Of a stretch of 64,000 nucleotides of DNA, positions 34,911 through 53,592 are shown in pieces. Origin of the DNA: Streptomyces asoensis (lineage in GTDB: Bacteria > Actinomycetota > Actinomycetes > Streptomycetales > Streptomycetaceae); assembly GCF_013085465.1 (NCBI RefSeq), contig NZ_CP049838.1, positions 6,634,001 to 6,698,000 on the forward strand. The letters run 5' to 3'. The stretch's first letter is position 1. Each line of letters starts with the position of its first letter. The notes beneath the pieces were generated by a model. The model saw only the letters and a list, made by a program, of their open reading frames with translations, was not told the DNA's origin and ran no database searches. Both the position numbers and the translations under genes were made by a program.

Positions 34911-34946
34911 GGTGCGGACCTCCTCCACGCGGCGACACGACACGCC

Positions 34947-34980: not shown

Positions 34981-35031
34981 GACGATGAAAGTCAAGACAC
35001 CCGTTCCGGTGACCACTTCGGCGCACGCAAA

Positions 35032-35054: not shown

Positions 35055-35087
35055 CCACGTGAACCGCTGCGAACCGCCGCGAACGGC

Positions 35088-35267: not shown

Positions 35268-35502
35268 GGATCGTGCTCCGTGGGTCGGTAGCAGGGATAG
35301 GGATCCCCCCTCGGGGGAAGGACCCTTGTTCCTGCGAGGGGAGGCAGAGATCCGCTCTCCGGTGGGGAGGGGACAGGAAAAGGATAGGCGCAGGGGGACG
35401 GCGTCCCGCGGGCCGCCGGAGCCCGCGCGCGGTCGGAACCCCGCGGCCGGCCTGCGCACCGACGGGCGGGGCCGGGGGGACTGGGGAAAGCGGGGGAGTG
35501 CC

Positions 35503-36009
35503 ATGAGTGGTGAGGACGTGACGCGGGTGGCCCGCATCGCGCTGCCGGACGGGACGCCCGTCTGGGCCCGGATCTCGGGGGCGGGGGAGCTGTCCGCGCC
35601 GTCCGGGCGGCTGTCGTACAGCGACACCGGGTTCGCCGAGCGGGTGGAGGCGAGCGTGGAGAGTCTGCACGCGCTCGTCACGGGGGTCGCGCGGTCGCTG
35701 GCGGAACCGCTGCGCGCGGTGCGGCCCGACGAGGTGAGTGTCGAGTTCGGCATCGAGCTGACCGCCAAGGCCGGGAAGGTCGTGGGCTTGCTCGCCGACG
35801 GAGAGGCCAAGGCCGGCATCACGGTCACCCTCACCTGGAACAGCGGGCCACCGGACCTCGACACATCACCTCCCGCGCCCCCCGGCGCGGGCTCCCGCGC
35901 GCGTGACGGCTCATCGTCCGACGAGGACGGGGTCCGGCGCGCGGGCGCGTCCCCCGGCGCGCCGATGCACGGGGGCGCCGACGGCACCGTGGGCGGGGGC
36001 GCGGAATGA
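35503..36009 (+). CDS. Trypsin-co-occurring (Trypco1/CU044_2847-like) protein
   Basis: 168 residues; the first 120 form a small beta-rich domain (VARIALPDGTPVWARI and EVSVEFGIELTAKAGKVV) that matches the Trypco1 family, which is regularly encoded beside trypsin-like VMAP proteins. The tail is Gly/Pro-rich. First gene of the island; its stop overlaps the trypsin-VMAP start (ATGA). Probably a regulator or substrate of the protease; not shown. Confidence 0.82.
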   Translation: MSGEDVTRVARIALPDGTPVWARISGAGELSAPSGRLSYSDTGFAERVEASVESLHALVTGVARSLAEPLRAVRPDEVSVEFGIELTAKAGKVVGLLADGEAKAGITVTLTWNSGPPDLDTSPPAPPGAGSRARDGSSSDEDGVRRAGASPGAPMHGGADGTVGGGAE

Positions 36010-38258
36010 CGGGCGGGCACGCCCCGGGCGCATCGAACGCGTTCGATGCGGCCCGTCGTGCACTGCGTGGACTCGTCGTGGCGGCGACCGTGCGCATTCA
36101 TCGCCCGGTCGTCGGGTATGCCCTGGAGGAGCCCGACACGTTCCTCGGGAGTGGCTTCTTCGTCGCCCCGAACTGGGTTCTGACCTGCGCACATGTGGCT
36201 TGCGGCGGGGAGGGGGGCGAGGTCACGGTGGTGTATGAGACGGCACCGGGGCGGGGCACGTCCGCCGCCCCCGGCCGGGTGGTGGCCACCCTTCCCGACC
36301 GGGCCGACCGCGCCGGGCGGGCCCTCGCCGGCAACTGGCCCGCCCCGGACCTCGCCCTGGTCCAGCTGACCGAACCCGTCGACGACCACGAGTGCGTGTA
36401 TGTCTCCGAGCGTCCGGCGGCCTACTACGGCGAGGGCCGGGTGCTGTACGCCGGCTGGACCGAGAACGAGGGCCGCTTACAGGTCCTGGACGGCACGCTC
36501 ACCGTGCAGGGCACCATCGGCGGCTGGTCCTCGGACGTGCAGATGCGGCTGGGCGACAACGACCTGCCGTACGGCGTCTCGGGCGGCCCGGTGATCGACC
36601 CCGAGCGCGGCGAGGTGATCGGCGTGCTGAAGGCGCGCTCGGACCACCGGCCCGGCGGCACGTCCACCGGGATCGAGCAGCTGCGCACCCTGCGGGTCCC
36701 CGCGGCGGCGGAGGCCGAGCACAGCGACCTCTACCAGGCGGTCTTCCACGCCCACGACCGCTACCACCGCGACCGCCAGCGCCACCCGGCCTCCCGGCGG
36801 CAGACCTGGACCGACGTCCAGGGCAGGCTCGGCGCGCGCCCGGGCCGCACCCTCAGCCCGGACGAGCGGATCCAGCTGCTGGGCCGGCTCGCCGAACTCC
36901 CGCCGCCCGAGAGCACCCGAAGCCTGCTGGACATCCTCGACTCCCTCCCCGACTTCCAGGCCCCCACCCCGCTGCCCGCGCCACGCGGCTGGCGCGACGG
37001 CCTCGGAGCGCTGTACGAGAGCGCGAGTGACGACGGGGCACTGGAACTCGTCCTCGACTACGCGATGCGCGCGATGTCCGCTCCGCGCCCGTTCGTCGTG
37101 CCCAGCACCCCGGACGCCGAGAAGGCCCTGTGGGTCTGGGTGTGGCAGGCCGCGCAGCGGCTGAGCGCCCGTTACCGGTCCGGTCTCGCCGAGCAGCGGA
37201 TCGAGCGGCTGCGCCGACGCGACGAGGCGGAGCGCGACGCCCCCGACACGGTCTCCGGCGGCCTCCACCCGACGGACGGTCCCGGCAGGCGCAAACCTCA
37301 CCGGCGGGGTGGGCCCGACGCACGCGCGCGTGCCCGTTCCGTCGGCAGCGTGGCCCGGCCCTCCGCCCTGCTCGAACTGGTGCGGCGGGGCTGGGAGCCG
37401 GACCGCTGCGACTGGTCGGTCTCCGTGGCCGCGCCCGGCGGTGAGGTGGTCCGGCTGCACGAGGCCGAGCGCACTCCGCTGGCCGACCTGCCCGCGCAGC
37501 TCGCCGGCCCGCTCGGGGAGGCCTTCCGGCACTGCGACGAGCCCGGCAGGCCCGCGCTCCTCCAGGTGGCGCTGCCCCACGCGCTGCTCGGCCTGGAGGT
37601 CGACAACTGGCAACTCGCGCCCGGACAGGAGCCGTTGGGGGCGCTGCGGCCGGTCGTCGTGCGCTGCTCCGACCGCGACCGGCTGCCCGACGAGGCGTTC
37701 GGCGCGTACGGGGGCGGGGGAGAACCGGACGATACGGCTGAAGCCGACGGTGCCGGCGGCGCTGACGACCTGGACGACGTGGACGACCTGGACGACCTGG
37801 ACGCGGAGCGCCGGGCCCGCTGGCGCTGGCTGCACGCGCACCGCGCCAAGGCCGAAGTCCTGGACTGCGACGAGGGGTTGCGTAAACCCGTACCGACCGT
37901 GGAGCAGCTGCGCGCCCTGTCGCACGGCACCGTCCCGGTGCTCTGCCGTTACGGCGACCTCCGTTACGAGGACGACGCGGAGGCGCTGGCCCGGATCGTG
38001 CTCGGCGGCTACGGCGTGGCGCTGTGGCGTCGGCGGCGCGGCCGGGCCGACGCCGTCTGCGGGGAGTTCCACCGCGGCACGATCGACGGGATCGCCGAAC
38101 CGCCGAGTGCGCAGCATCTGCCCGAGGCCGTGCACGATCTCCGGATGCGGCTGCGCGCGGGCCGCACGGAGTCGTTCTGGGCCGACGGCGTCGCCCTGCT
38201 GTACGACGATCCCCACCAGCCGCTGCCCGGAACAGGTGACCTGTTGGAGGCCCCTTGA
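36006..38258 (+). CDS. Trypsin-like protease with VMAP-C domain
   Basis: 750 residues. An N-terminal chymotrypsin-fold protease with a full triad: His63 (CAHV), Asp115 (PDLALVQL) and Ser192 (GVSGGP). A helical effector-associated region follows, then a VMAP-C domain (about 450-750) ending GVALLYDDPHQP. No signal peptide, so it acts in the cytosol. VMAP-C links protease or other effector domains to a MoxR ATPase and vWA partner in conflict systems. An acidic Asp-Asp-Leu repeat (about 585-600) interrupts the C-domain. Leu158 is coded by TTA (36477-36479), so full translation needs the bldA tRNA. Confidence 0.9.
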   Translation: MTGGHAPGASNAFDAARRALRGLVVAATVRIHRPVVGYALEEPDTFLGSGFFVAPNWVLTCAHVACGGEGGEVTVVYETAPGRGTSAAPGRVVATLPDRADRAGRALAGNWPAPDLALVQLTEPVDDHECVYVSERPAAYYGEGRVLYAGWTENEGRLQVLDGTLTVQGTIGGWSSDVQMRLGDNDLPYGVSGGPVIDPERGEVIGVLKARSDHRPGGTSTGIEQLRTLRVPAAAEAEHSDLYQAVFHAHDRYHRDRQRHPASRRQTWTDVQGRLGARPGRTLSPDERIQLLGRLAELPPPESTRSLLDILDSLPDFQAPTPLPAPRGWRDGLGALYESASDDGALELVLDYAMRAMSAPRPFVVPSTPDAEKALWVWVWQAAQRLSARYRSGLAEQRIERLRRRDEAERDAPDTVSGGLHPTDGPGRRKPHRRGGPDARARARSVGSVARPSALLELVRRGWEPDRCDWSVSVAAPGGEVVRLHEAERTPLADLPAQLAGPLGEAFRHCDEPGRPALLQVALPHALLGLEVDNWQLAPGQEPLGALRPVVVRCSDRDRLPDEAFGAYGGGGEPDDTAEADGAGGADDLDDVDDLDDLDAERRARWRWLHAHRAKAEVLDCDEGLRKPVPTVEQLRALSHGTVPVLCRYGDLRYEDDAEALARIVLGGYGVALWRRRRGRADAVCGEFHRGTIDGIAEPPSAQHLPEAVHDLRMRLRAGRTESFWADGVALLYDDPHQPLPGTGDLLEAP

Positions 38259-38377
38259 GCCCCCCTTGAACACACCCGCGCGCGGGCCGGTCGGCCCCTT
38301 ACCAGGCACCTCCAGGATGGATAACGTGATGCACGTTCGGACGGCCGCGGCGGTGGACGAGTGACGAGGACCGGATC

Positions 38378-39400
38378 ATGACCGAATCCAGTGAGTGGCT
38401 CATCTACCGAGGCGCCGGCGAACCGCACGACGGGATCGAGCGGTTGCCCGATCCGCCCCCCTGGCGGGACTTCACCAGCCGTGACGCGGCGGGCTCCGGC
38501 GACGGGTCCCAGGACCGCAGGCTCGGCGCGCACCGGCACCTGGCGGAACTGCACCGGCCGGGAGCCGAGGAGCTGGAGATGATCAACGCGGCGCTCTATC
38601 TGCGCCGCCCCCTGCTCGTCACGGGCAGTCCCGGCGCGGGCAAGAGCACGCTCGCCCACTCGGTGGCGTACGAACTCGGTCTCGGCAACGTGCTGCGCTG
38701 GTCGATCGTCAGCCGTTCCGCACTCCAGGACGGGCTGTACCACTACGACGCGATCGCCCGGCTCCAGGACGTGCAGATCGCCGCGCAGGGCGGGTTCGGG
38801 TCGGCGGCGGGCTCGCCCGGCGCGGTCGAGGGCATCGGCAGCTACATCCGGCTGGGACCGCTCGGCACCGCGCTGCTGCCCTCCGACACTCCGCGCGTGC
38901 TGCTCATCGACGAGCTGGACAAGAGCGACATCGACCTGCCCAACGACCTGCTGAACGTGCTCGAGGAGGGCGAGTTCGCCATTCCCGAGCTGGAGCGCAT
39001 CGCCGACCGGCTGCCGGACGGCGAGGCGGAGGTGCTGACCGCCGACGGGGTGAAGGTCCGGGTGCGGGACGGCCGCGTGCGCTGCCGCGCCTTCCCGTTC
39101 GTCGTGCTCACCAGCAACGGCGAGCGCGATTTCCCGGCCCCGCTGATGCGCCGGTGCATCCACCTGGAGCTGGGGCGCCCCGACCACAACCGGCTCGCCA
39201 CCTTCGTACGCGCGCATCTCGGTGACGAGGCGGCGCGCGCGGGGGACGATCTGATCACGCGGTTCCTGGAGCGGTCGCGCAGTGAACTCCTCGCGGCGGA
39301 CCAGTTGCTGAACGCGATCTACCTCACCGACGCGGCCGCGCCGCCCAGTCGTGACCGCCTGGCCGACCTGCTCATCCAGCGACTCGACCGCCCGAGGTGA
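38378..39400 (+). CDS. MoxR-type AAA+ ATPase
   Basis: 340 residues. Walker A GSPGAGKS (83-90), Walker B LLIDELDK (about 175-182), sensor 1 LTSNGERD and sensor 2 region PLMRRC fit the MoxR group. Such ATPases work with vWA proteins to remodel or activate targets; here the vWA partner starts 7 bp downstream and the VMAP protease 119 bp upstream. ATG preceded by GAGGA. Confidence 0.92.
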   Translation: MTESSEWLIYRGAGEPHDGIERLPDPPPWRDFTSRDAAGSGDGSQDRRLGAHRHLAELHRPGAEELEMINAALYLRRPLLVTGSPGAGKSTLAHSVAYELGLGNVLRWSIVSRSALQDGLYHYDAIARLQDVQIAAQGGFGSAAGSPGAVEGIGSYIRLGPLGTALLPSDTPRVLLIDELDKSDIDLPNDLLNVLEEGEFAIPELERIADRLPDGEAEVLTADGVKVRVRDGRVRCRAFPFVVLTSNGERDFPAPLMRRCIHLELGRPDHNRLATFVRAHLGDEAARAGDDLITRFLERSRSELLAADQLLNAIYLTDAAAPPSRDRLADLLIQRLDRPR

Positions 39401-39407
39401 GGGCCTG

Positions 39408-42400
39408 ATGCCCGACGCAGCGGCCCGCCACGGCCCCGTCCCGCCCGACGGCCGCCGTCCCGGCACCCCGGGTGCCGTCCCGGCCGGAGGCGGCTCCGTC
39501 GAGCCCGCCGGTGCCTCGGCGCCCGTACCGCGCGGCGGTGATCCGCTCGCCGAACTCGTCGTGCGGTTGCGTGACGTCGGACTCGACCCCGATGTGCCGC
39601 AGCTGTGCGACGCGCTCTGGCTGGCGCGCTGGACCCGGCCGGCCGAGGCCTCCGACCAGGACGACCCGCCGGCCGGAACCGGCGGCCGGCCCACGCCCCT
39701 GCCCGACGGCGGACGGGGACGGGACCGGGACGGACGGCCGCGGGGGGACCGCCCCGAACGGCCGGAGCGGCCACCGCAGGGCGTGGGGGCCGACGGGCGG
39801 GTGAGTCTGTACCCGGTCCCGCAGGACGGGGTGGAGCGGACCCGTGGCGCGGGGCGGGCCGCCGCGCTGCCGGTGGGCGTACCCGCTGCCCCCGTGCTGC
39901 CCGCCCCGCTCGAACTCCAGCGCGCATTACGGCGGCTTCAGCGCTACCGGAGCCCCGCGCCGCCGCTGCGCATGCGGCTCGACGAGACGGCGACGGCGGA
40001 GCGCAGCGCGCAGGCGGGCGGCCTGATCCTGCCCGTGTACCGGGCCGTCACCCGGGGCGACGCCCGGCTCCAGCTGGTCCTGGACGCCTCGTCCTCGATG
40101 CGGGTGTGGGACCGGCTGTTCATCGAACTTCAGCAGGTTTTCGGCCAGTTGGGCGCCTTCTCCGACATCCAGGTCAGCCATCTGCACCAGGGGCCGGACG
40201 GTGAGCCGGCCGTCAGCCGCAGCCCCGACGCCTACGCGGCGCCGCTGCACTCCGCGGACCGGCTCAGCGACCCCACCGGCCGCCGGATCGTCCTGTTCGT
40301 CAGCGACTGCGCGGGCCCCCTGTGGCACAGCGGCCACGCGCACCGGCTGCTGCACCACCTCTCCCGGCAGGGCCCGGTCGCCGTGCTCCAGCCGCTGCCG
40401 CAGCGCCTGTGGAACCGCACCCGACTTCCCGTGCTGTTCTGCGAGTTGAGCCGCGGCGAGACGCTGGGCGGAGCGGCCGCACTGCGCGTACGCACCCCCG
40501 CGGGGGTCCCGGCGGAGGCGCGCCGGGGAGCGCTGCCGGTGCCGGTGCTGCCGCCCGAGCCGGTGGCCCTGGGCGCCTGGGCCAGGCTGCTGTCCGGGGC
40601 CGGCGCCGGGCCCGTCCCGGGGGCCGTGGGCTGGGTGCGCGCGGACCAGCCGGCCGCCCCGGCGGCACGCGCCGACCGACGGCGCACGCCGTTCGAACGG
40701 GTCAGCAGGTTCAGCTCCAGCGCCTCCCCGGCCGCCGGACGGCTCGCCGTCTATCTGGCCGCCGCACCCCTGTGCCTGCCCGTGATGCAGCTCGTCCAGC
40801 GCACGATGCTGCCCGACTCCGGGCCGGCCGAACTCGCCGAGGTGCTGGTCGGCGGCCTGGTCACGCGCGCGTCGGAGGAGTACGCCGACGGCGGCGCCCA
40901 GTGGTACCGCATCGAGCCCGACGTGCGGGACGCCCTGTTGTCCCGGCTGGGCCGCGACGAGGCCATGCTGGTGCTCAAGCACTGCTCGGAGTACATCGAG
41001 CAGCGCTTCGGCAAGGGCGGCCCCAACTTCCCGGCCCTCGCCCTGGCCCAGCTCGGCGACGGCGGCGCGGGCCGCCCGTACGCGCCCGCCGCCCAGCGCA
41101 CGGATCACGGCGACCACGGCGACAACGGGGATCACGGGGACAACGGCGGCAACGGCGAGGAGGCCCCCGTGCCCCAGCCCTTCGCGGAGGTCGCGGCCCG
41201 CGTGCTGCGGCGGTTCATGCCGCTGCCCGAGCAGTTCGAGAGCCTCGGAAGCCGGACCGGACCGGGACAGCCCGTGGACCGGCCGACACACCAGGCGGTC
41301 CGCAGGGCCCGAGCGCTGATCGAGCGCTTCGACAGCGAGGGCATGATCCAGGACGTCATCGACGCGGTGCAGTTGCTGCGCGGCGCCACCGAGCGCGAGC
41401 GGGCGGGCGCGGACCCCGAACTGTGGGCCGAGTACGCGCACTGCACTCTGCGGCTGTGGGAGGTGCAGGGCGGCGACGACCTCCTCCAGGAGGCCGAGGC
41501 GGCTGCGGAACGGGCGACCGCGCACCCGGGTCGGCTGCACGAACGGGCCGTGCTGGCCCGGGTGTTGCACGCGGCCGCGACCGACCGCAGGCGACGCGGC
41601 GACCGCCCCGGCGCCCTGGACCTGCTGCGCCGCGCCGACCGCGAGTACGCCGTCGCCTGCGCGGCGCCCGGGCTCGACGAGAACCAGGCGCTGAAACTCA
41701 CCCTGGAACGGGTGCGCGCCCTGGAGGCCCAGTGGCGGCTCGGCGGGGACAGCGCGCTGCTCCAGGGCGCCGTCGGCATGCTGGAGGCCTTCGCCGACGT
41801 CTGGCCCGACCGGCGTCAGCGCCCGCCCGAACTCCCCCTGGAGCACGGCCGGATCCTGCTGCGACTCTCCGGCGCCACCGCCGATCCCGTCCAGGCACGG
41901 CTCTACGCCGAGCAGGGCGCGCAGTCGCTGCGCAACGCCCTGGACACCGGCGCGGAGCCGTACACCGCCGAGTCGGCACGCGCGCGGGTGCGCATCCTGC
42001 TCGACCTGGTCGACGCGCTGCTCCAGGCGGGCGGCCCGCTGGACGACGCCCAGGCCCGGGTCGACGAGGCCCTCGCCCTGGTGCGCGAACAGGGCCGGCG
42101 CGCCTCTTTGCTGGCGCGGGCCGGCCGGATCGCCGTGGCCCGCTACGCCGAGTCGGGCGAACCGGCGGAGCTGGAGGCGGCCGCGGACCGCTTCGCGCAG
42201 GCCGCCCAGCGGATGTCCCGCGACGCGCCCGCGCACGCCGACGTCCTCGCCGAGTGGGGCGAGGCGCTGCTGCGGCTGGCCGGGCTCCAGTCCGGGGCAC
42301 GGGCGCAGGACGTGCTGTCCCGGGCGATCCGCGTGCTGCGGGACTGCCGGATGGAGACCCCGGCGGGCAGCCGTCAGGTCGCCCACCGGCTGCTGCTGCT

Positions 42401-42869
42401 CGGCCGCGCGCTGATGCTGCGCTACCGGGCCCGCGGGGACCGGGTCGACCTGCGCGAGGCCGAGCACCTCTTCGGCCTCGCGGCGGCGGAGGCGGGGGAT
42501 CCGCTGCTGGCCGCCCGCTGCCGGCTGGACCTCGGCCAGGTCCAGTTCGAGGCCTATCGCAGCCTGCGCCGCCCGGCCCGGCTCGACCTCGCGGTCGACG
42601 CCTTCCGCGACGCGGCGGAGGCGGCCCGGGAGGCGGAGGGGATGGCCGAAACCGGTCGTCGGCGCCATGAGGCCGTCGAGTTGTGTGCGCAGGCGCATCA
42701 CTGGCGGGGTATGTCCTATGAGGCGGCCGCCCGGCCGCGTGCCGCCCGCGAGGCATACCGCCTGGCCCGCGCGGAGTGGTCGAGGCTGCCGGACGACCAC
42801 CTGGGCACGGGCGAGCCGACGGCGGAGCAGACGGCGCGGCGGCTGGCCGCACTGGAACGTGTGACATGA
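39408..42869 (+). CDS. Large vWA-like protein of the SAV_2336 type with TPR-like C-terminal half
   Basis: 1153 residues. Disordered Pro/Gly-rich start (1-100); a vWA-like domain (about 215-350) with MIDAS-type LVLDASSSM near residue 225 and FVSDCAGPLW; a middle region of about 300 residues; and from about 600 a long Ala/Arg/Leu-rich helical repeat region resembling tetratricopeptide solenoids. It is the vWA arm of the vWA-MoxR-VMAP set and would present targets to MoxR. Leu174 is TTA (39927-39929), a second bldA-dependent gene. The giant open frame on the other strand is a codon-bias shadow. Confidence 0.85.
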   Translation: MPDAAARHGPVPPDGRRPGTPGAVPAGGGSVEPAGASAPVPRGGDPLAELVVRLRDVGLDPDVPQLCDALWLARWTRPAEASDQDDPPAGTGGRPTPLPDGGRGRDRDGRPRGDRPERPERPPQGVGADGRVSLYPVPQDGVERTRGAGRAAALPVGVPAAPVLPAPLELQRALRRLQRYRSPAPPLRMRLDETATAERSAQAGGLILPVYRAVTRGDARLQLVLDASSSMRVWDRLFIELQQVFGQLGAFSDIQVSHLHQGPDGEPAVSRSPDAYAAPLHSADRLSDPTGRRIVLFVSDCAGPLWHSGHAHRLLHHLSRQGPVAVLQPLPQRLWNRTRLPVLFCELSRGETLGGAAALRVRTPAGVPAEARRGALPVPVLPPEPVALGAWARLLSGAGAGPVPGAVGWVRADQPAAPAARADRRRTPFERVSRFSSSASPAAGRLAVYLAAAPLCLPVMQLVQRTMLPDSGPAELAEVLVGGLVTRASEEYADGGAQWYRIEPDVRDALLSRLGRDEAMLVLKHCSEYIEQRFGKGGPNFPALALAQLGDGGAGRPYAPAAQRTDHGDHGDNGDHGDNGGNGEEAPVPQPFAEVAARVLRRFMPLPEQFESLGSRTGPGQPVDRPTHQAVRRARALIERFDSEGMIQDVIDAVQLLRGATERERAGADPELWAEYAHCTLRLWEVQGGDDLLQEAEAAAERATAHPGRLHERAVLARVLHAAATDRRRRGDRPGALDLLRRADREYAVACAAPGLDENQALKLTLERVRALEAQWRLGGDSALLQGAVGMLEAFADVWPDRRQRPPELPLEHGRILLRLSGATADPVQARLYAEQGAQSLRNALDTGAEPYTAESARARVRILLDLVDALLQAGGPLDDAQARVDEALALVREQGRRASLLARAGRIAVARYAESGEPAELEAAADRFAQAAQRMSRDAPAHADVLAEWGEALLRLAGLQSGARAQDVLSRAIRVLRDCRMETPAGSRQVAHRLLLLGRALMLRYRARGDRVDLREAEHLFGLAAAEAGDPLLAARCRLDLGQVQFEAYRSLRRPARLDLAVDAFRDAAEAAREAEGMAETGRRRHEAVELCAQAHHWRGMSYEAAARPRAAREAYRLARAEWSRLPDDHLGTGEPTAEQTARRLAALERVT

Positions 42870-42894
42870 GCGGAGAGAGTCGGGAGGGGTGGGC

Positions 42895-43098
42895 ATGGAC
42901 GAACAGGACGGGTTCGCGGGGGTGACGGTGGCGCCGGAGGCCCCCGGCGCGGGGGAGCCGCTGCCGGATCTGCTGTCGCTGGGTCTCACGGAGCTGGGGA
43001 CGATCGAGCATCCCGTGCTGCTGGAGCTGCTGGAAGAGCTGCGGGACCGCGCGGGACAGACGAGCGAGCCGCTGTGGGGGTTCGCCTCGGCGCTCTGA
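42895..43098 (+). CDS. fxsA: FxSxx-COOH cyclophane-type RiPP precursor peptide
   Basis: 67 residues, ending LWGFASAL: the C-terminal F-x-S-x-x motif of the FxSxx-COOH family, of which the last residues are the modified core. The leader holds LPDLLSLGLTELG and LLELLEELRD. ATG preceded by GGGAGGGGT with good spacing. Lies 25 bp after the vWA gene and before the radical SAM gene. The expected product is a peptide with a cross-link at the Phe-x-Ser motif; its release is not explained by any visible peptidase other than the island protease or HExxH protein. Confidence 0.9.
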   Translation: MDEQDGFAGVTVAPEAPGAGEPLPDLLSLGLTELGTIEHPVLLELLEELRDRAGQTSEPLWGFASAL

Positions 43099-43234
43099 GG
43101 CAACCGCCGTCGGCTCCACCGACCACCCGATTCGAGCCACTCGATCGTTCGGAGTCGATTCCGGTTTCTTCTGTGCGCGACTCGGACAACTTCGGTCGGG
43201 TGGGGTTTGTGACCCGTGCCCGCCCGGGAATGCG

Positions 43235-43267
43235 CCCCCATGCGGCTCAAGGGCCTAGGCATGGGGG
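43235..43267 (+). terminator. Stem-loop between precursor and radical SAM gene
   Basis: CCCCCATGC (43235-43243) and GCATGGGGG (43259-43267) are perfect 9-bp arms around a 15-base loop. The 3' arm contains the G-rich Shine-Dalgarno-like sequence for the GTG start at 43275, so the stem could both limit read-through and mask that site. If the upstream ATG (43230) were used the hairpin would be coding. Confidence 0.6.
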
Positions 43268-43274
43268 TGCTGGA

Positions 43275-44435
43275 GTGTCTCGACAGGCCTTCCGCCAGTT
43301 CATCGTGAAGACGCACGGCCGCTGCAACCTCGCCTGCACCTACTGCTACCTCTACGAGGGCCCCGACTCCACCTGGCGCACCCGCCCCGCGGCCGCCGCC
43401 GACGAGGTCCTCGACCGCACCGCGACCCGTATCGCCGAACACGCCGCCACCCACGGCCTCGCGGACATCTCCCTCGTCCTGCACGGCGGCGAGCCCCTGC
43501 TGGCCGGCGCCGGGAAGCTGGCCCGCTTCACCGCCCTGGTGCGCGACCGCGTCCCGGCCGGCTGCACGGTCCACGCCACCGTCCAGACCAACGCCACCCT
43601 CCTCACCGCGCGGCGCCTCGCCGTCCTGGCCGACGCCGGCATCCGGATCGGCGTCAGCCTCGACGGCGGCCTCGCCGCGCACAACGCCCGCCGCGTCGAC
43701 CACGCGGGGCGCCCGTCCTGGCCCGCCGCCGCGCGCGGGGCGCTGCTGGTCGCCGAGCAGGCCCCGCAGGCCTACGCCGGCATCCTCACCGTCGTCGACG
43801 TCACGCTGGACCCGGTGGAGACGTACGAGTCCCTCCTCACCCTGCGACCGCCCGGCCTGGACTTCCTGCTGCCGCACGGCAACTGGTCCGCCCCACCGCC
43901 CCACTGGGCGGACGCCCGCCACGGGGAGTGGCTGTGCGCCGTCTTCGACCGCTGGTGGCGGGCCGGCCGGCGGGAGACCCGGGTCCGCCTCTTCGAGGAG
44001 TGCGTCGCGCTCCTGCTGGGGCTGCCCTCGGTCACCGAGGCCCTCGGCCTCGCGCCGTTCGACGCCGTCGTCGTGGAGACCGACGGATCGATCGAACAGG
44101 TGGACGCCCTGAAGTCCGCCTACGACGGCGCCGCGCGCACCGGCCTGGACGTCTTCCGGCACGCCTTCGACGAGGCGCTGCTGCACCCCGCGGTGGCGGC
44201 CCGGCAGGCGGGCGCCGCGGCCCTCGCGGACCAGTGCCGGGCCTGCCCCCTGCTGACCGTCTGCGGAGGCGGCCACTACGCCCACCGCTACCGGGCGGGG
44301 CACGGCTTCCGCAACCCGTCCGTGTACTGCGCGGACCTCCAGCGCTTCATCCGCCACGTCGCCGGCCGGCTCGCCGAGGACACGGCCGCCGCGGCCGCCG
44401 CCGTCCCCGCGGCCCGGGAAGGAGGCGCACCGTGA
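43275..44435 (+). CDS. fxsB: Radical SAM/SPASM cyclophane-forming peptide maturase
   Basis: 386 residues from GTG 43275. Radical SAM motif CNLACTYC (Cys17, 21, 24) right at the start, HGGEPLL, QTNATLL and GVSLDGG strands of the TIM barrel, and a SPASM-like C-terminal cluster region with CRACPLLTVCGGGHYAHRY then SVYC. Ligates a 4Fe-4S cluster and forms a radical on the precursor's Phe-x-Ser motif. An in-frame ATG at 43230 would add 15 residues. The stop overlaps the HExxH gene (GTGA). Confidence 0.92.
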   Translation: MSRQAFRQFIVKTHGRCNLACTYCYLYEGPDSTWRTRPAAAADEVLDRTATRIAEHAATHGLADISLVLHGGEPLLAGAGKLARFTALVRDRVPAGCTVHATVQTNATLLTARRLAVLADAGIRIGVSLDGGLAAHNARRVDHAGRPSWPAAARGALLVAEQAPQAYAGILTVVDVTLDPVETYESLLTLRPPGLDFLLPHGNWSAPPPHWADARHGEWLCAVFDRWWRAGRRETRVRLFEECVALLLGLPSVTEALGLAPFDAVVVETDGSIEQVDALKSAYDGAARTGLDVFRHAFDEALLHPAVAARQAGAAALADQCRACPLLTVCGGGHYAHRYRAGHGFRNPSVYCADLQRFIRHVAGRLAEDTAAAAAAVPAAREGGAP

Positions 44436-46204
44436 CAAGGCCGACGGTCCCCGACCGGGCCCTCGTGGAACTCGGCCGCACCGAGGGGACCCCCGACACC
44501 CTGGCCCTCCTCGTGCGGGACCAGGACACCCGACGGCTGCTCCTGCTGCGCGCCGTCCTCGACGCGGCCGAGGCGGCTGACCCCGCGCTCTGCTCCCCCG
44601 GCCGAAAGTCCCGGCTGCGCGACGACTGGTCCCTGCTCGCCGAGGCCGACCACCCAAAGCCACCGGGCGCCGCCCATCCCCCGGGCGGCGAGTCCTGGAA
44701 CCCGCGCGGGATGCCGCCCCCCGGGCCCGGCGTGCCCCACCCGTCGTCAGGCGCCGCCCATCCCCCGGGCGGCGAGTCCTGGAGCCCGCGCGGGATGCCG
44801 CCCCCCGGGCCCGGCGTGCCCCACCCGTTGTCAGGCGCTGCCCACCCCCCGGGCGGCGAGTCCTGGAGCCCGCGCGGGATGCCGTACCCGTCGTCGGGCA
44901 CCGCTCACTCACCGGGCGGCGCCCCACAGGACCCGCGCGGGATGTCGTACTCCTCGCTCGGTGCGCCGCATTCCTTACCGGGTACCGTCCAGCCTCCCCC
45001 GCCCCCGCCGGGTGTCGGACTCTCGCCCGCTCGGGACCGGCTCTTCCATCCGTTGACCGGGCCATGGGCCCTGAGCTGTCTGCACGGGCTCGACGGCCGC
45101 GCGGGTCCCCCGGACGAGCCCCGGTCCCGTCGGCTCCGGCAGGACCTCGCGCACTTCAGCGCGATCGCCGCCGTGGCGGCCGCACGCGCCGGGATCCCGT
45201 TCACCGTCCGGCTGACCGCGTACGCCGGAGTGCTCACCCTGCCGTCCCTCGGCTCGCTGCGCACGGCCACCACAGGTGACGTCCCCGTCGACGTCACCCA
45301 CCGCGAAGGGTGCCTGACGGTGCGCCAGCCCGACGCGCCGGACGTCCTCGTGTGTCTGGAGAGCGGGATCGGGGCCTGGTCCGGCGCCCTCGCCTGGACT
45401 CCCGTGCACGCCCTGCCCGGGCTGGCGTCCACCGGCGGCCCCATGCCCCTGGACGACGTGGATCCCTACCGTGTCGCACCCGGCCCCCGCCACCGCACGC
45501 TCGGCGGAGCCGCGACCCTCGACGACGGCGACGGCAAACGCTGGCTCCAGGCCTGGTCGGGCACCGAGGCCGCACTGCGCACCGGCGGCGCGCACCGGGT
45601 GACCGAGGCGGTGGCGCTGCTGCGCTGCCTGGTGCCGCTGGAGCGGCCGCCGGGCGCCGAGGGACGGGACAGTTGCAGCGCGACCCGGCACGAGGCGTTC
45701 GGCGCCCTGCTCTCCAGCACCCCGCAGGACGCCCTGGCATTGGCCGAGACCCTCGTCCACGAACTGCACCACGCCAAACTGGCCGCCCTGGGCGACCTCG
45801 TGACGCTCCATCACGCCGACGCGGAAGCCCGCTACTTCGCCCCCTGGAAGACCGACCCCCGACCGTACGACGGTCTGCTCCAGGGGGTCTACTCGCACCT
45901 GGCCCTCGCGGACTACTTCCAGCGCCGCGCGCTGCGCACCACACCGCCCGACAGCGAGTACGCCTGGTCGCGGCACGCCCGCTACCGCGCCCAGGTCGGA
46001 GCGGCCCTGCCGGGACTCGTCGGCTCGCCCGACCTCACCCGCCGGGGACGCCGGTTCGTCGACGAGATGACAGCCACGTACGAGCGTATGGCCGACCATC
46101 CGGCGCCCCGCAACCACACGGCGCGGGCCCAGGCGTATGTGAAGGCCGCACGCGCTCTGTGGACACAACGTCATGCTCCCGCCGTGCCACGCCCGAAAGA
46201 ATGA
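44432..46204 (+). CDS. HExxH-motif peptide modification protein of the FxSxx-COOH locus
   Basis: 590 residues from the GTG overlapping fxsB. A metalloprotease-like HExxH motif (HELHH, about 444-448) lies in a helical C-terminal half with YFAPWKTDPRP and LALADYFQRR downstream; the family is named for that motif in RiPP loci and could hydrolyse or otherwise modify the peptide. Residues about 79-176 are a Pro/Gly-rich tandem repeat with 84-bp DNA units that interrupt the N-terminal domain. Leu182 is coded by TTA (44975-44977). Confidence 0.88.
   Translation: MTRPTVPDRALVELGRTEGTPDTLALLVRDQDTRRLLLLRAVLDAAEAADPALCSPGRKSRLRDDWSLLAEADHPKPPGAAHPPGGESWNPRGMPPPGPGVPHPSSGAAHPPGGESWSPRGMPPPGPGVPHPLSGAAHPPGGESWSPRGMPYPSSGTAHSPGGAPQDPRGMSYSSLGAPHSLPGTVQPPPPPPGVGLSPARDRLFHPLTGPWALSCLHGLDGRAGPPDEPRSRRLRQDLAHFSAIAAVAAARAGIPFTVRLTAYAGVLTLPSLGSLRTATTGDVPVDVTHREGCLTVRQPDAPDVLVCLESGIGAWSGALAWTPVHALPGLASTGGPMPLDDVDPYRVAPGPRHRTLGGAATLDDGDGKRWLQAWSGTEAALRTGGAHRVTEAVALLRCLVPLERPPGAEGRDSCSATRHEAFGALLSSTPQDALALAETLVHELHHAKLAALGDLVTLHHADAEARYFAPWKTDPRPYDGLLQGVYSHLALADYFQRRALRTTPPDSEYAWSRHARYRAQVGAALPGLVGSPDLTRRGRRFVDEMTATYERMADHPAPRNHTARAQAYVKAARALWTQRHAPAVPRPKE
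44666..44959. repeat. 84-bp coding minisatellite in the HExxH gene
   Basis: Two full 84-bp copies (44666-44749, 44750-44833) are followed by a 63-bp truncated third copy (44834-44896) and a degenerate fourth (44897-44959). All keep the frame and encode GAAHPPGGESW-S/N-PRGMPPPGP-type 28-residue units. The near identity of copies 1 and 2 points to a recent expansion and likely length variation between strains. Confidence 0.9.
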
Positions 46205-46334
46205 GGATGGCCTGCAAGGGGCCGCCCGGTGCGCGAAGATCGTCGAATCGAGGCACGCGTGGATGAAGTCGGCGGACTTACGCACGACGCGCCGAGGTTC
46301 TAGGATTTTGGTACTACGCGCTGGAGGCCGCTGC

Positions 46335-49300
46335 ATGTCTGGAGCTCGTACGCCGGTGGGGGCAACCGGGAGAGGGGCCGCGAGGCAGACGGTCACGATC
46401 CATTTCGCGGGTTTCAACCGGGCCTGGGCGGCCTGGGTCGGGGACCGGCTCGAACGTCGTGGCCTGCGGGTGGTGTACCTGCGCTGGGACTCCCCGGCGG
46501 ACGTCCCCCTGGTGGACCTGTTGCGCGACCTGGAACTCGCCGAGGGCCGCATCCTCATCGTCGTCAGCGAGTGGTACTTCCAGCTCGGTCCCCGGACGCA
46601 GGAGGAGTGGAACGCGGCGCTGCGCGAGGTCGTCGCCCCCGACGCGTCCCGGTTCGCCGCCGTCTCCGTCACCTCGGCGTCCGTGCCCTCCGCGACCGCC
46701 GTCCTCGCCCCGGTCAACCTGACCAACATGGGCGCCGAAGAGGCCGAGCGCCGGCTGCTCGACCGGCTGGACCTGCCGACCGATCCGCTGCCCGAGCCCG
46801 TCGACGCGGCGCGCCGCGGTCCCCGGTTCCCGGCGTCGATGCCCGAGGTCTGGGGCGGGGTGCCCCGCCGCAACACCCGGTTCACCGGCCGCGAGTCGCT
46901 GCTCAACGAGGCCTACCACGTGCTGCGGAACGCGGAGCCCGGCGCGGGTGTGGTCACGTTCCACGGCATGTCGGGCGTCGGCAAGACCCAGCTGTCCGCC
47001 GAGTACGTCTACCGCTTCGGCTCCGAGTACGACGTCGTCTGGTGGGTCAACGCCGAGAAACGCGTGACCTACCGTCGGCTGCTCGCCGAACTCGCCCCGA
47101 AACTCGGCCTCCAGACCGGCCAGGAGTACGGAGAGCGGCTGCGCGCGGTCCGCGACTCGCTGCGCCGCGGCGAACCGTACGGGCGCTGGCTGCTGATCCT
47201 CGACGGCGCGGACGAACCCGACCAGATCTGGGACCTGGTGCCGACCGGCCCCGGCCACGTCATCATCACCTCCCGCAACCCGGAATGGACCGAGCACAAC
47301 AGCAAGCTGCTGGAGGTGCCCGTCTACGCCCGCGACGAGTCGGTGGCGTTCATCCGGCGCCGAGCCCCGCGGCTGACGGAGGTGGAGGCCGACCAGCTCG
47401 CGGACGCGCTGGAGGACCTGCCGCTGCTGCTGGACCAGACGGCGGGCTGGCTGAACGACTCCGACCTCTCGGTGCGCCAGTACATCGCCCTGCTCGACGG
47501 CGGCATCGACAGCGACGTGGTGAAGGTGTCGGCGGACTTCCCGCTCGCCTTCCAGACCGCGTGGTCGATACTGCTGAACAAACTCCGCGACACCGTCCCC
47601 GAGTCGGTCGACCTGCTGCGGCTGTGCACGTTCTTCGCACCGGGCTTCATCCCCGTCCGCCTGCTGCGCGAGATGTCCAGCGAGGCACTGCCCGAACAGC
47701 TCGCCGGACTGCTCAACGACCCGCTGCTGTGGAACAAGGCGATCAACCAGCTCCGCCAGTACTCGGTGGTCCGCCTGGAGTCCCACGAAGCGCTCGGCGA
47801 CGAGGCGGCCGCCTCCGGCGAGTCGCTGTACCTGCACCGCATGGTCCACCAGATCGTGCACAAGGACATGCCGGACACGGACCGCAAGGAGTTCATCGAC
47901 GTCGTACGCCAGGCCCTCGCAGCGGCCGACCCGCGCCGGCCCACCGACCCCGACCTGTGGCCGGGATACGCCCAGATCGTGCCGCATCTGAAGTACGCGG
48001 ACGTGCTCCAGACCCAGGACCCGGCCGTCCAGCGACTGGTCTTCAACTGCCTGCGCTACATGTACTTCTCCGGTGAGTACAACGCCGGCATCAAGCTCGG
48101 CGAGCGCGCGATGGTGGCCTGGCGCGAGCTGCTCGGCCCGACCCACCCCAGGATCTGGGAGCTGAGCTACCACTACACCAACCTGCTGCGCGCCGTCGGC
48201 GACTACGCCGGGACCGAGGCCCTCAGCCGCGCCGCCTCCGAGCACCTGAAGGCGGAGCGCGGACCCCAGGACCTGGAGCATCTGCGGGCCGCCGCCGGTC
48301 TCGCCGCCGACCTGCGCGGCCTCGGCCGCTACGACGAGGCACTGGAACTCTCGCAGTGGGTCCTGGTCGGATACCGCGACCTGCTGGGCGAGCAGGACTC
48401 GCGAAGCCTCAACTCGCTGAACAACCTCGCCGTCTCCCTGCGGCTGCTCGGGCGCTACCAGGAAGCCCTGGACATCGACCGGCAGACCCTGGAGTCCCGG
48501 CGGGTGCTGCTGCGGGCCCGTCATCCGTGGACCCTCGGCTCCGAGATCTACTACGCCATCGACCTGCGGCTCCTCGGCCGCTACGCCGAGGCCGAGTCCA
48601 TCCAGGCGAAGAACGTGCGCGAGAGCCGTCTGGTGATGGGCCGCGACAACCCGCAGACCCTCAGCGCCGAGCACAACCTGGCGCTGTGTCGCTACCGCCT
48701 GGGCGACCGTGACCGCGGCCGGGACCGCGGCATGGACTGGGAGGAGCCCGGGGAGATGCTCTCCAGCGTGCTGGAGCGCGGCGAGCGGGTGCTGGGCGAG
48801 ACGCACCCGCTGACCCTGATCTTCGCGACGGCCCAGAGCTGCTACGCCCGCGAGCACGGCGACATCGACCGGGCCCACGAGCTCAGCGAGGCCGTCGTCG
48901 CACGCTACGAGGTGATGCTCGGCGACGGGCACCCCTTCGTCGCGGGCGCCCGCGCCAACCAGGCGCTGATCCTGCGCAACGTCGGCGAGCGGGAGGCCGG
49001 CCATGTCCTCCTGGAGCAGGCGCTGGCGTCGATGACCGAGGCGGTGGGCGAGAACCACGCCTGGACACTGGGCTGCGCCCTGAACGCCTCGGCCCTGCGC
49101 AACATCGTGGGCGACACCGAGAGCGCCGCCGACCTCAGCCGGGACACGGTGACCCGGGCCATCGAGTCGCTCGGCCGGACCCACCCGCTGACCCTGTCGG
49201 CGCGGATCGCGTACGCGGCGGACCTGCGCGGTCTGCGGGACCGGCGGCAGGCCGAGAAGGTCGAGCAGGAGGCCCTCTCGGACCTCGACGCGACGCTCGG

Positions 49301-49376
49301 CAGCAAGCACCCGCACACCGTCTCGGCCCGCTCCCGCAACCGCCCCTACTGGGACTTCGAACCCCAGGTCATCTGA
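46335..49376 (+). CDS. fxsT: TIR / NB-ARC / tetratricopeptide protein of the FxSxx-COOH locus (FxsT type)
   Basis: 1013 residues. TIR-like domain (about 17-145) with the glutamate of SEWYFQLGPRTQEEW (Glu91) at the place of the catalytic residue of TIR NADases; STAND NTPase (about 180-490) with P-loop GMSGVGKT, Walker B LLILDGAD and ITSRNPEW; then TPR repeats (about 590-990; RYDEALELSQWVLVGYR, RYQEALDIDRQTLESRR). A sensor-oligomer-effector layout as in innate-immune STAND proteins. ATG at 46335 with GGAGG; the upstream frame lacks support. Confidence 0.9.
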   Translation: MSGARTPVGATGRGAARQTVTIHFAGFNRAWAAWVGDRLERRGLRVVYLRWDSPADVPLVDLLRDLELAEGRILIVVSEWYFQLGPRTQEEWNAALREVVAPDASRFAAVSVTSASVPSATAVLAPVNLTNMGAEEAERRLLDRLDLPTDPLPEPVDAARRGPRFPASMPEVWGGVPRRNTRFTGRESLLNEAYHVLRNAEPGAGVVTFHGMSGVGKTQLSAEYVYRFGSEYDVVWWVNAEKRVTYRRLLAELAPKLGLQTGQEYGERLRAVRDSLRRGEPYGRWLLILDGADEPDQIWDLVPTGPGHVIITSRNPEWTEHNSKLLEVPVYARDESVAFIRRRAPRLTEVEADQLADALEDLPLLLDQTAGWLNDSDLSVRQYIALLDGGIDSDVVKVSADFPLAFQTAWSILLNKLRDTVPESVDLLRLCTFFAPGFIPVRLLREMSSEALPEQLAGLLNDPLLWNKAINQLRQYSVVRLESHEALGDEAAASGESLYLHRMVHQIVHKDMPDTDRKEFIDVVRQALAAADPRRPTDPDLWPGYAQIVPHLKYADVLQTQDPAVQRLVFNCLRYMYFSGEYNAGIKLGERAMVAWRELLGPTHPRIWELSYHYTNLLRAVGDYAGTEALSRAASEHLKAERGPQDLEHLRAAAGLAADLRGLGRYDEALELSQWVLVGYRDLLGEQDSRSLNSLNNLAVSLRLLGRYQEALDIDRQTLESRRVLLRARHPWTLGSEIYYAIDLRLLGRYAEAESIQAKNVRESRLVMGRDNPQTLSAEHNLALCRYRLGDRDRGRDRGMDWEEPGEMLSSVLERGERVLGETHPLTLIFATAQSCYAREHGDIDRAHELSEAVVARYEVMLGDGHPFVAGARANQALILRNVGEREAGHVLLEQALASMTEAVGENHAWTLGCALNASALRNIVGDTESAADLSRDTVTRAIESLGRTHPLTLSARIAYAADLRGLRDRRQAEKVEQEALSDLDATLGSKHPHTVSARSRNRPYWDFEPQVI

Positions 49377-49399
49377 CGCCCGGCCGGCCCGAGCACGCC

Positions 49400-49441
49400 G
49401 AAGGGCCCGGCCCCCGGAAACCTCCGGGGGCCGGGCCCTTC
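49400..49441. terminator. Terminator between island and kgd
   Basis: Perfect 18-bp arms (49400-49417 and 49424-49441) with a 6-base loop; closes the island and the convergent kgd transcript. Confidence 0.95.
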
Positions 49442-49468
49442 GCCCGTGACGGGCGTGGTGGGTGAGGA

Positions 49469-52400
49469 CTACGCCTCGAACACCTCACGCACCAGCTGCT
49501 CCTGCTCCGCCTGGTGTCGCTTGGCGGAGCCGACCGCCGGGGACGAGCCGTGCGGGCGCGAGATGCGGCGCAGGCGCTCGCCGTGCGGCACGTCCGCGCC
49601 GACCGCGAGGTCCAGGTGGTCGATCAGGTTCAGGGCGATGAACGGCCAGGCGCCCTGGTTGGCCGGCTCCTCCTGGGTCCAGAGGTACTTCTCGGCGTTG
49701 GGGTACTTGTTGACCTCCGCCTGGACCTCGGCACCCGGGAGCGGGTACAGCCGCTCGAGGCGGATGATCGCCGTGTCCGTGACGCCGCGCTTCTGACGCT
49801 CGGCCTCCAGGTCGTAGTAGACCTTGCCGGCGCAGAAGACGACCTTCTTCACGGCCGCCGGGTCGGTGATCGTCGTGTCGCCGATGACCGGGCGGAACTG
49901 GCCGCTCGTGAACTCCTCCGCCTTCGACGCGGCGGCCTTGAGGCGCAGCATCGACTTCGGGGTGAAGACGACCAGCGGCTTGTGGTGCGGGTTGTGCACC
50001 TGCCACCGCAGGAGGTGGAAGTAGTTCGACGGGAGCGTGGGCATCGCGACCGTCATGTTGTTCTGGGCGCAGAGCTGGAGGAAGCGCTCGACACGGGCCG
50101 AGGAGTGGTCCGGGCCCTGGCCCTCGTAGCCGTGGGGGAGGAGGAGCGTGACACCGCTCGTCTGACCCCACTTCTGCTCGGCCGCCGAGATGTACTCGTC
50201 GACCACGGTCTGCGCGCCGTTGACGAAGTCGCCGAACTGCGCCTCCCACATCACGAGCGCGTCGGGGCGGGCCAGCGAGTAGCCGTACTCGAAGCCCATC
50301 ACCGCGTACTCGGAGAGGAGGGAGTTGTAGACGTTGTAGCGCGCCTGCTCGTCGTTGAGGTACTGGAGCGGGGTGTGCTCCTCACCCGTCTCGCGGTCGA
50401 TGAGCACCGCGTGGCGCTGGCCGAAGGTGCCGCGCTGCGAGTCCTGGCCGGACAGCCGGACCGGGGTGCCCTCCAGGAGGAGGGAGCCGACGGCCAGCGT
50501 CTCGCCCATGCCCCAGTCGATCGTGCCGTCCTCGACCATCGACGCTCGGCGCTGGAGCTGCGGCAGCAGACGCGGGTGGACGTGGAAGTAGTCGGGGATG
50601 TTGACCTGGGACTCGGCGATGCGCTTGACGACCTCCGCGGAGACGGCCGTGTTCACCGCGACCGGGAAGTTGTCCTGCGGCTCGTGGGCGTCGCCGGCGG
50701 CGGGCTGCGCGGTGGCCTCGCGGACCTCCGTGAAGACCTTCTCCAGCTGGCCCTGGTAGTCCTGGAGCGCCTGCTCGGCCTCTTCCAGGGTGATGTCGCC
50801 GCGACCGATGAGGGACTCGGTGTACAGCTTGCGCACCGAGCGCTTCTTGTCGATCAGGTCGTACATCAGCGGCTGGGTGAAGGCCGGGTTGTCCGACTCG
50901 TTGTGACCGCGGCGGCGGTAGCAGATGAGGTCGATCACCACGTCCTTGTTGAACGCCTGGCGGAACTCGAAGGCCAGCCGCGCGACGCGGACCACGGCCT
51001 CCGGGTCGTCGCCGTTCACGTGGAAGATCGGGGCCTCGATCATGCGCGCCACGTCCGTGGCGTACATCGACGAGCGCGAGGACTCCGGGGCGGCGGTGAA
51101 GCCGACCTGGTTGTTGATGACGATGTGGACCGTGCCGCCCGTGCGGTAACCGCGCAGCTGCGACATGTTCAGGGTCTCGGCCACCACGCCCTGGCCCGCG
51201 AAGGCCGCGTCGCCGTGCAGGGCGACCGGCAGGACGGTGAAGTCCGTGCCGCCCTTGTTGATGATGTCCTGCTTGGCGCGGCTGATGCCCTCGATGATCG
51301 GGTCGACCGTCTCCAGGTGGGACGGGTTCGCGGCCAGCGAGACCTTGATCTGCTCGCCGTCCAGGCCCGTGAAGGTCCCCTCGGCGCCCAGGTGGTACTT
51401 CACGTCGCCGGAGCCGTGCATCGACTTCGGGTCGAGGTTGCCCTCGAACTCACGGAAGATCTGCGCGTACGACTTGCCGACGATGTTCGCGAGGACGTTC
51501 AGGCGGCCGCGGTGGGCCATGCCGATGACGACCTCGTCCAGCCGCGACTCGGCCGCGCTGTCCAGCACCGCGTCGAGCAGCGGGATGACGGACTCGCCGC
51601 CCTCCAGGGAGAAGCGCTTCTGGCCGACGTACTTCGTCTGGAGGAAGGTCTCGAAGGCCTCCGCCGCGTTCAGCCGGCGCAGGATGCGCAGTTGCTCCTC
51701 GCGCTCCGGCTTGCTGTGCGCGCGCTCGATGCGGTCCTGGATCCAGCGGCGCTGCTTCGGGTCCTGGATGTGCATGAACTCGACGCCGGTGGTGCGGCAG
51801 TACGAGTCGCGCAGCACGCCCAGGATGTCGCGCAGCTTCATCAGGGACTTGCCCGCGAAGCCGCCGACCGCGAACTCGCGCTCCAGGTCCCACAGGGTGA
51901 GGCCGTGCTCGGTGATGTCCAGGTCGGGGTGCTTGCGCTGGCGGTACTCCAGCGGGTCGGTGTCGGCCATGACATGGCCGCGGACCCGGTAGGAGTGGAT
52001 CAGCTCGAAGACCCGGGCGGCCTTGGTGACGTCGTCGTCGTGGCTGGCGTCGATGTCCTTGAGCCAGCGGACCGGCTCGTAGGGGATGCGCAGCGCCTCG
52101 AAGATCTCGTCGTAGAAGCCGTTCTCCCCGAGGAGGAAGTTGGCGACGACGCGGAGGAACTCGCCGGAGGCGGCGCCCTGGATGACCCGGTGGTCGTAGG
52201 TCGACGTGAGCGTCATGACCTTCGAGATGCCGAGCTTGTTCAGGGTGTCCTGGCTGGTGCCCTGGAACTCCGCCGGGTAGTCCATCGAGCCGACGCCCAT
52301 GATGACCGACTGGCCGGGCATCAGACGCGGCACCGAGTGGACGGTGCCGAGGCCGCCGGGGTTGGTCAGGGAGACCGTCACGCCGGTGAAGTCGTCCATC

Positions 52401-53290: not shown

Positions 53291-53592
53291 GGCGGCAACC
53301 GCCCTCTTCCGCTTCACAAGGTGATGGACAGCGGGAATAAAGGCTACGCCCCCTGGAGGGGGAAGGTCAGGCCGGGCCGGTGCATCGTCGCGTAAGTCAC
53401 ATCGGAAAGCGCGTTTCGCGGCTGTAAATGGCGGGAAACAAGCGCGGTTGCGCGTCAAAAGGGGTGCGTTGATGCAGGTCGCGCACGCTGAGCGTGCGGA
53501 CCCGTGCCGACCTGGGACGGTCCGCTGCCTGATCACACGTGTCCGGCTGCGCGAACGTCGGTGGATCTTGTGGCTCCGGTTCGAACTTTACG
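53291..53592. other. Intergenic region between kgd and the histidine kinase gene
   Basis: 302 bases, with the kgd promoter. No hairpin or repeat stands out; an AT-rich patch near 53401-53460 is the best promoter candidate by composition only. Confidence 0.45.

Follow-up and report, generated by a model that had tools for sequence, protein, structure and literature searches.

At positions 35503 to 49376 of the window, by which we mean the whole 64,000-nucleotide stretch of Streptomyces asoensis DNA that was analysed (contig NZ_CP049838.1, positions 6,634,001 to 6,698,000), eight genes follow one another on the plus strand, with neighbours that overlap or sit at most 131 bp apart. They unite the Trypco1, trypsin-VMAP-C, MoxR, and vWA genes of a conflict-type system with a FxSxx-type peptide cassette (the precursor FxsA, the radical SAM maturase FxsB, and an HExxH protein) and a TIR-NB-ARC-TPR protein of the STAND class, and every one of the eight proteins reaches the cut-off of at least one curated family profile (Table 1). 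The preliminary description of this DNA, made from the letters alone, had listed the same eight genes on one strand with overlaps or short gaps, a protease with an intact His63-Asp115-Ser192 triad, and a 67-residue precursor ending in FASAL. All three were recovered: the triad is invariant across 39 aligned VMAP proteins from three allele types, and FxsA, whose F-A-S-A-L terminus fits FxSxx, passes TIGR04268 by a narrow margin (29.9 bits against 28).

Table 1. Features of the eight-gene block and its flanks. Positions are those of the window; paired figures are bit score/family cut-off.
Feature	Positions	Strand	Support
DUF4097/LiaG-like gene, left flank, outside the unit	33915..34943	-	PF13349
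Trypco1 protein, 168 aa, trypsin-co-occurring domain	35503..36009	+	PF19493 73.5/24.6
Trypsin-like protease fused to VMAP-C, 750 aa	36006..38258	+	Trypsin_2 PF13365 61.9/27.6; VMAP-C PF20028 126.3/27
MoxR-type AAA+ ATPase, 340 aa	38378..39400	+	AAA_5 PF07728 25.8/22; Walker motifs by eye
SAV_2336-type vWA protein, C-terminal helical/TPR region, 1153 aa, ATG 39408	39408..42869	+	SAV_2336_NTERM NF041121 512.9/200
FxsA precursor peptide, 67 aa, C-terminus LWGFASAL	42895..43098	+	TIGR04268 29.9/28; aligned precursors of relatives
fxsA-fxsB intergenic stretch, partly conserved block and weak terminator-like hairpin	43099..43229	+	
FxsB radical SAM/SPASM maturase (predicted to form a cyclophane), 401 aa, CxxxCxxC	43230..44435	+	TIGR04269 429/370
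Alpha-ketoglutarate (aKG)-HExxH-type peptide beta-hydroxylase-like protein, 590 aa, HELHH	44432..46204	+	TIGR04267 mod_HExxH 169.1/40
TIR-NB-ARC-TPR STAND protein, 1013 aa from ATG 46335	46335..49376	+	FxSxx_TPR NF040586 827.2/300; TIR_2 53.3/28; NB-ARC 41.7/23.5
kgd/sucA, 2-oxoglutarate dehydrogenase, right flank, outside the unit	49469..53536	-	NF008907 2114 bits

The block lies between a LiaG-like gene and kgd, each of which was found in 75 of the 76 genomes of the genus that were searched for both flanks. Both flanks were on one contig, and the site therefore scorable, in 69 genomes. At least 25 of these sites contain a close FxsB (among the matches listed), 23 have less than 3.2 kb between the flanks, and 21 carry other cargo; at 6 of the sites with FxsB and 3 of those with other cargo, the flanks have a rearranged orientation. 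Reading 16 of the 21 other-cargo sites revealed 10 systems with an HExxH protein and no FxsB (type C, below), 1 degenerate type B system, 1 site with the VMAP genes only (L145), and 4 others.

Three peptide cassettes were distinguished on this common chassis. Type A combines FxsB with HExxH, as in the window, type B has FxsB only, and type C has HExxH only, with no radical SAM gene. Systems could be typed at 71 loci where MoxR, vWA, and NB-ARC matches lie near a TIR match (46 A, 15 B, and 10 C, with L154, whose FxsB is partial, counted as B). The type A and B loci were picked by the similarity of their FxsB to that of the window (60 of the matches listed, from the top and apart from those already included), so the ratio of A to B should not be read as a frequency.

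No part of the unit varies more than the precursor tail. Type A tails, such as LWGFNNAF, contain W-x-F in 40 of 45 cases and [FY]-x-[NS] in 39 of 45, the commoner form being W[GA][FY]x[NS]xx. We had considered FxSxx as the constant core motif and rejected it, as the strict ending fits just 11 of the 45; the label names just a portion of the diversity of tails found in this clade. Type B tails have [YF]-x-[DN] near the end (13/14), mostly as YxD, and two type B precursors score 82.5 and 41.7 against the NCBI YxD-tail family (cut-off, 55). In type C, a full VMAP set, HExxH, and TIR-STAND occur without FxsB at 10 loci, 9 of which have a precursor with an FxsA-like leader; neither W-x-F nor F-x-[NS] is present in any of these 9 tails. 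Three of these precursors match TIGR04268 below its cut-off of 28 (16.6, 20.3, and 25.4 bits) and in the leader part only. No precursor was detected at L123, L153, or L154.

Each chassis domain sorts with the cassette that it accompanies. The nearest neighbour belongs to a system of the same cassette for Trypco1 in 64 of 65 cases and for the other domains in 67/67, 66/66, and, for six of them, 71/71 cases, whereas for the flanking genes the counts are 41/57 and 40/58. Since shuffled labels give means of 23.8 and 26.8, a degree of phylogenetic signal is present in the flanks. On the loci scored for the flanks, the chassis still reaches 56/57 or better, and after dereplication its sorting remains complete while the flanks drop to 25/44 and 16/42. 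Gene order is conserved among the relatives. The simplest reading of these comparisons is replacement of the whole block at a fixed site, and the claim of the preliminary description that the two halves form one unit was thus upheld, both by the gene order and by the nine chassis domains sorting by peptide type when the flanks do not. After correction by either flank, the correlations between the two halves are high in type B (0.71 to 0.96) and type C (0.56 to 0.97). One result weighs against complete linkage: in type A, FxsB correlates with MoxR, trypsin, and VMAP-C at just 0.14 to 0.27 after correction by LiaG, rising to 0.50 to 0.61 if kgd is used for the correction.

Beyond this site, the two halves are often found apart. 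FxsB exceeds its cut-off in 58 of 296 genomes of the class, and 81 FxsB loci were read (79 fetched, one of which has two FxsB, plus the window). NB-ARC or a matching TPR was found near FxsB at 75 of them and HExxH at 66. The same-strand trypsin-VMAP-C-MoxR-vWA quartet accompanies FxsB at 11 or more of the 81 loci, all in the genus of the window, a lower bound because contig ends cut off at least 12 of the class loci. Conversely, VMAP-C exceeds its cut-off at 37 loci in 28 genomes of the genus, 11 linked to FxsB and 26 without it. Frequent separation of the two sets of genes, which the preliminary description had named as evidence against its reading, is therefore partly observed. In general, then, the VMAP and FxSxx modules are separable, having been joined into one block in this clade, and the eight-gene set is a combination at the level of the genus.

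At five loci (L102, L103, L106, L107, and L108), FxsA, FxsB, HExxH, and TIR-STAND come after the LiaG-like flank, with no quartet. Their FxsB proteins are 75 to 77% identical to that of the window, and four of the five genomes encode VMAP-C and vWA elsewhere; in the other, G469 (99% complete, 540 contigs), no VMAP-C or SAV_2336 vWA was found above the cut-off. All forms of the peptide system keep the precursor and the TIR-STAND protein, with FxsB, HExxH, and the quartet each dispensable somewhere. Because these five loci retain both without the quartet, the constant core appears to be the precursor together with TIR-STAND. FxsB with TIR-STAND genes in tandem was seen at L136 and L137, where the absence of trypsin is no evidence of loss because both loci are cut upstream. 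The genome of the window itself contains further FxsB loci at C1:4452116 and C1:1624967 (L076 and L078), each with a TIR-NB-ARC-TPR gene and no VMAP quartet.

The best solved relative of FxsB in a sequence search is ChlB (9gm3; E value, 2.5e-70), and those of the HExxH protein are 22nu (2e-27) and ChlH (8s5f; 2e-4). Members of the aKG-HExxH family were first annotated as peptidases and later shown to hydroxylate cyclophane peptides, one member, PflC, being reported to cleave a truncated substrate (PMC12636437). The HExxH protein, with its HELHH motif, belongs to this family of aKG-dependent peptide beta-hydroxylases and is thus probably not a peptidase. It shares with the ChlH hydroxylases (PMC12636437) the TIGR04267 match, the HExxH motif, and sequence kinship to ChlH and 22nu, and differs in being encoded by a separate gene and, in type C, by having no radical SAM partner, if that form is active. 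FxsB-type enzymes produce the natural products known as triceptides, or three-residue cyclophane peptides (enzymes MscB, XncB, OscB, and YxdB; PMC11002830), to which our systems are linked by the FxsB and YxD precursor families, the F-x-S tail of the window, and the Y-x-D of type B. The small share of strictly FxSxx tails in type A sets our systems apart from these, and the product here is a prediction.

The STAND protein was modelled by AlphaFold2 with a mean predicted local distance difference test (pLDDT) score of 87.7, as a TIR domain, NB-ARC and winged-helix domain (WHD), and then a long TPR superhelix. Matches to the model in a Foldseek search include the TPR-STAND protein 6mfv, Avs3, Apaf-1, and RPP1, and the layout of N-terminal TIR, NB-ARC, and superhelical sensor is likewise that of the NLR/STAND receptors (Apaf-1, CED-4, RPP1, Avs3, and 6mfv). 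By sequence, the best matches are to kinesin light chain TPRs (best E value, 6.9e-8). The fold matches span mainly residues 532 to 1005, with little coverage of TIR and NB-ARC, and for the TPR part they include APPBP2 with a C-degron, subunits of the anaphase-promoting complex (APC/C), RapF with peptide, MalT, NprR, and KLC1 with C-terminal peptides. The superhelix resembles peptide-reading TPRs such as RapF, NprR, KLC1, and APPBP2 in fold, and in the kinesin light chain matches also in sequence; this likeness lends weak support to peptide reading, because the matches are TPR folds generally. Within types, conservation is higher in the A helices of the TPRs than in the B helices, which fits a groove and is not specific to one. 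The groove was also considered as the seat of the type-specific residues, a candidate that we dropped since the WHD scores higher.

The STAND proteins end in a conserved RPYWDFEP(Q), recognized by a loose pattern in 136 of 153 linked proteins and in none of 11 unlinked NB-ARC/TPR candidates of the genome of the window, some of which may not be true proteins. Residues 1001 to 1010 are confidently placed (pLDDT, 94) though without secondary structure. This terminus resembles the type A tails (PLWGF) at W-x-F. In the TIR domain, position E75, the candidate catalytic Glu as assigned by eye, is Glu in 43 of 46 type A, 7 of 15 type B (7 Ala and 1 Thr in the others), and 10 of 10 type C proteins. A role as an NADase is doubtful, because this candidate residue is not conserved in type B. 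No solved TIR structure was matched by sequence at an E value of 1 or less. A second TIR-STAND gene lies immediately downstream at L122, L124, and L139.

The protease of the VMAP set has an AlphaFold2 model with a mean pLDDT of 83.5, whose top Foldseek matches are proteases of the trypsin/HtrA fold, and its triad is equally constant in the domain alignment (H, 67/67; D, 66/66; S, 64/64). Among the Foldseek rows with an E value of 0.001 or less, the best 50 of 307 all cover the protease domain and carry no information on VMAP-C. We considered leader cleavage by this trypsin, with an Asp at S1 and the conserved Arg of the leader, and abandoned the idea because the S1 region varies and precursors of non-VMAP systems carry a similar Arg. 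The sole Pfam vWA match of the vWA protein is VWA_CoxE, below its cut-off (16.7/26.4); its DxSxS motif was recognized by eye, as were the C-terminal repeats, which match no curated TPR model. In a curated family search, no recognizable transporter, exporter, or immunity gene was found among the eight genes.

The combination of the eight genes has been described from sequence before. In 2020, Kaur et al. (PMC7159879) found a peptide-processing set in about 20% of actinobacterial VMAP systems, in which the FxSxx types gain a gene for a radical SAM/SPASM protein and encode their TIR-AP-ATPase-TPR protein separately, further downstream, and they proposed the processed peptide to be a toxin or a signal that amplifies the core system. 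Their FxSxx-type ternary system matches the window in content and layout: an FxSxx precursor, HExxH, radical SAM/SPASM, Trypco, trypsin-VMAP, vWA with TPRs, and a separate TIR protein downstream, the VMAP, MoxR, and vWA genes here being adjacent and above their cut-offs. The preliminary description had considered the combined logic undescribed, which was mistaken except as regards experiment; we found no experimental test of the combination and no survey of the site in the open-access literature. Our account departs from that of Kaur et al. (PMC7159879) in the HExxH protein, which they call a precursor-cleaving peptidase and whose family is now annotated as aKG beta-hydroxylases. Their section on these systems describes a fused AP-ATPase in the RxD and acidic types and contains no mention of the LiaG-kgd site, of block alleles, or of HExxH with a separate TIR-STAND protein in the absence of radical SAM. 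Neither the series of alleles at one fixed site nor form C, which lacks a radical SAM gene, was previously described in the literature searched, in which we also met no NLR/STAND member that senses a ribosomally synthesized and post-translationally modified peptide (RiPP) from its own operon.

We tentatively prefer a reading in which the block is one conflict-type unit, the cross-linked tail is the intracellular ligand of the TPRs of the TIR-STAND protein, and VMAP, MoxR, and vWA form a switch upstream. If FxsB acts as the FxSxx enzyme MscB does, it would join Phe63 and Ser65 in FASAL as a three-residue cyclophane, and the HExxH protein would add a beta-hydroxyl. The tail would act inside the cell, as the unit holds no recognizable exporter. 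A threat would activate MoxR/vWA and the VMAP protease, which would free or trim the tail; occupation of the TPR groove by the tail would lead NB-ARC to oligomerize and TIR to assemble the downstream response. That the STAND protein senses the peptide had been suggested in the preliminary description and is favoured, rather than demonstrated, by the presence of precursor and TIR-STAND in all allele types. The same constant receptor-ligand pair would also suit a guard or antitoxin logic, which we regard as rather unlikely, in which the mature tail restrains the STAND protein until the tail is lost, cleaved, or mis-modified, for instance through an invader's effector or the VMAP protease. The conserved aromatic-acidic C-terminus of the STAND protein could then be displaced or mimicked, as is conceivable from the cis segment of kinesin light chain (PMC6214655), but this terminus is near-constant although the peptide tails vary by type.

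That the two halves are independent systems side by side, sharing regulation and making no mechanistic contact, would account for the 70 of 81 FxsB loci without the quartet, the 26 of 37 VMAP-C loci without FxsB, the five loci that lost or never had the quartet, and the weak type A correlation after correction by LiaG. It accords poorly with the joint sorting of nine chassis domains in the 71 systems against mixed flanks and with the high flank-corrected correlations in types B and C, and we think it unlikely. Equally to be weighed is the toxin alternative, which Kaur et al. (PMC7159879) keep open beside that of a signal: the modified peptide would itself be toxic or act as the effector, its release being controlled by STAND and VMAP. 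The appeal of this alternative lies in the variability of the tail; however, with TIR the STAND protein has a domain of effector type of its own, and the lack of a recognizable immunity or export gene among the eight makes this role unlikely. Lastly, as FxsB-type enzymes yield natural products (PMC11002830), the cassette could be a secreted RiPP antibiotic cluster that chances to adjoin a conflict system, a very improbable case given eight genes with no recognizable transporter and neighbours that encode PadR, a LiaG-like protein, and kgd.

Kinesin light chain TPRs are held inactive by a cis segment similar to the STAND C-terminus (PMC6214655), which motivates the idea that this terminus is a pseudo-ligand filling the TPR groove, on which the silence of the receptor would depend. 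Joined to the allele series, the idea leads to a further and quite speculative proposal, that the site is an allorecognition or immune-haplotype locus, where each strain would carry one block allele comprising a coded tail, a matched NLR-like receptor, and a protease switch, swapped whole, and the mature tail would compete with YWDFEP. As one part of this joint proposal, and just as speculative, the code of the tail might consist in its being cyclophane bearing, hydroxylated, both, or without a cyclophane. Fungal heterokaryon-incompatibility loci offer an analogy for whole-block swapping between core genes. If the tail is in fact read by the adjoining NLR-like receptor, as we prefer, the cross-linking and hydroxylation of peptides would belong to immune signalling and not to antibiotic chemistry, and bacteria would possess a ligand-receptor haplotype system. 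Present at one site in forms that have or lack FxsB, HExxH, or the VMAP quartet, the alleles amount to natural deletions for testing the 2020 prediction.

Within the block, Trypco1 and the protease gene overlap by 4 bp, as do FxsB and HExxH, and the gaps measure 119 bp (VMAP-MoxR), 7 bp (MoxR-vWA), 25 bp (vWA-FxsA), and 131 bp (FxsA-FxsB). The STAND gene starts 130 bp after HExxH if ATG 46335 is used; ATG 46173 and ATG 46263 are possible alternatives, the former of which would produce an overlap. A sigma-70-type scan of the plus strand from 34900 to 49600 detected no promoter-like site, such scans covering few actinobacterial promoters. Three terminator-like sites were found against 1.7 expected, one of them (43149 to 43164) between fxsA and fxsB, a gap in which a partly conserved block around GAACCGGACAACTTCG occurs in many, not all, type A relatives. 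This intergenic stretch may be an attenuator or an internal promoter; the attenuator fared poorly as a candidate, the block being missing from some type A loci and the single-sequence folds disagreeing.

PADLOC (library of 2023) returned weak partial matches only, to the protease, MoxR, and radical SAM proteins, and none to the STAND protein or the precursor. The G+C content from 36000 to 46000 (74.6 to 76.5% in 2-kb steps) is above that of most of the window. The PadR-type regulator and LiaG-like gene that border the site (32765 to 34943, minus strand) are possibly an envelope-stress pair. At the same site, L145 (7690500 to 7699600) carries Trypco1, trypsin-VMAP-C, MoxR, vWA, and a short NB-ARC match accompanied by a weak TIR match, together with a second trypsin-VMAP-C; neither FxsB nor HExxH was recognized there. 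L148 has none of the components of the block, and at L146 a single protein gave weak matches to trypsin and NB-ARC. At L155 and L156, which were left unclassified, the flanks are rearranged, and an HExxH-type gene was the only one recognized near kgd.

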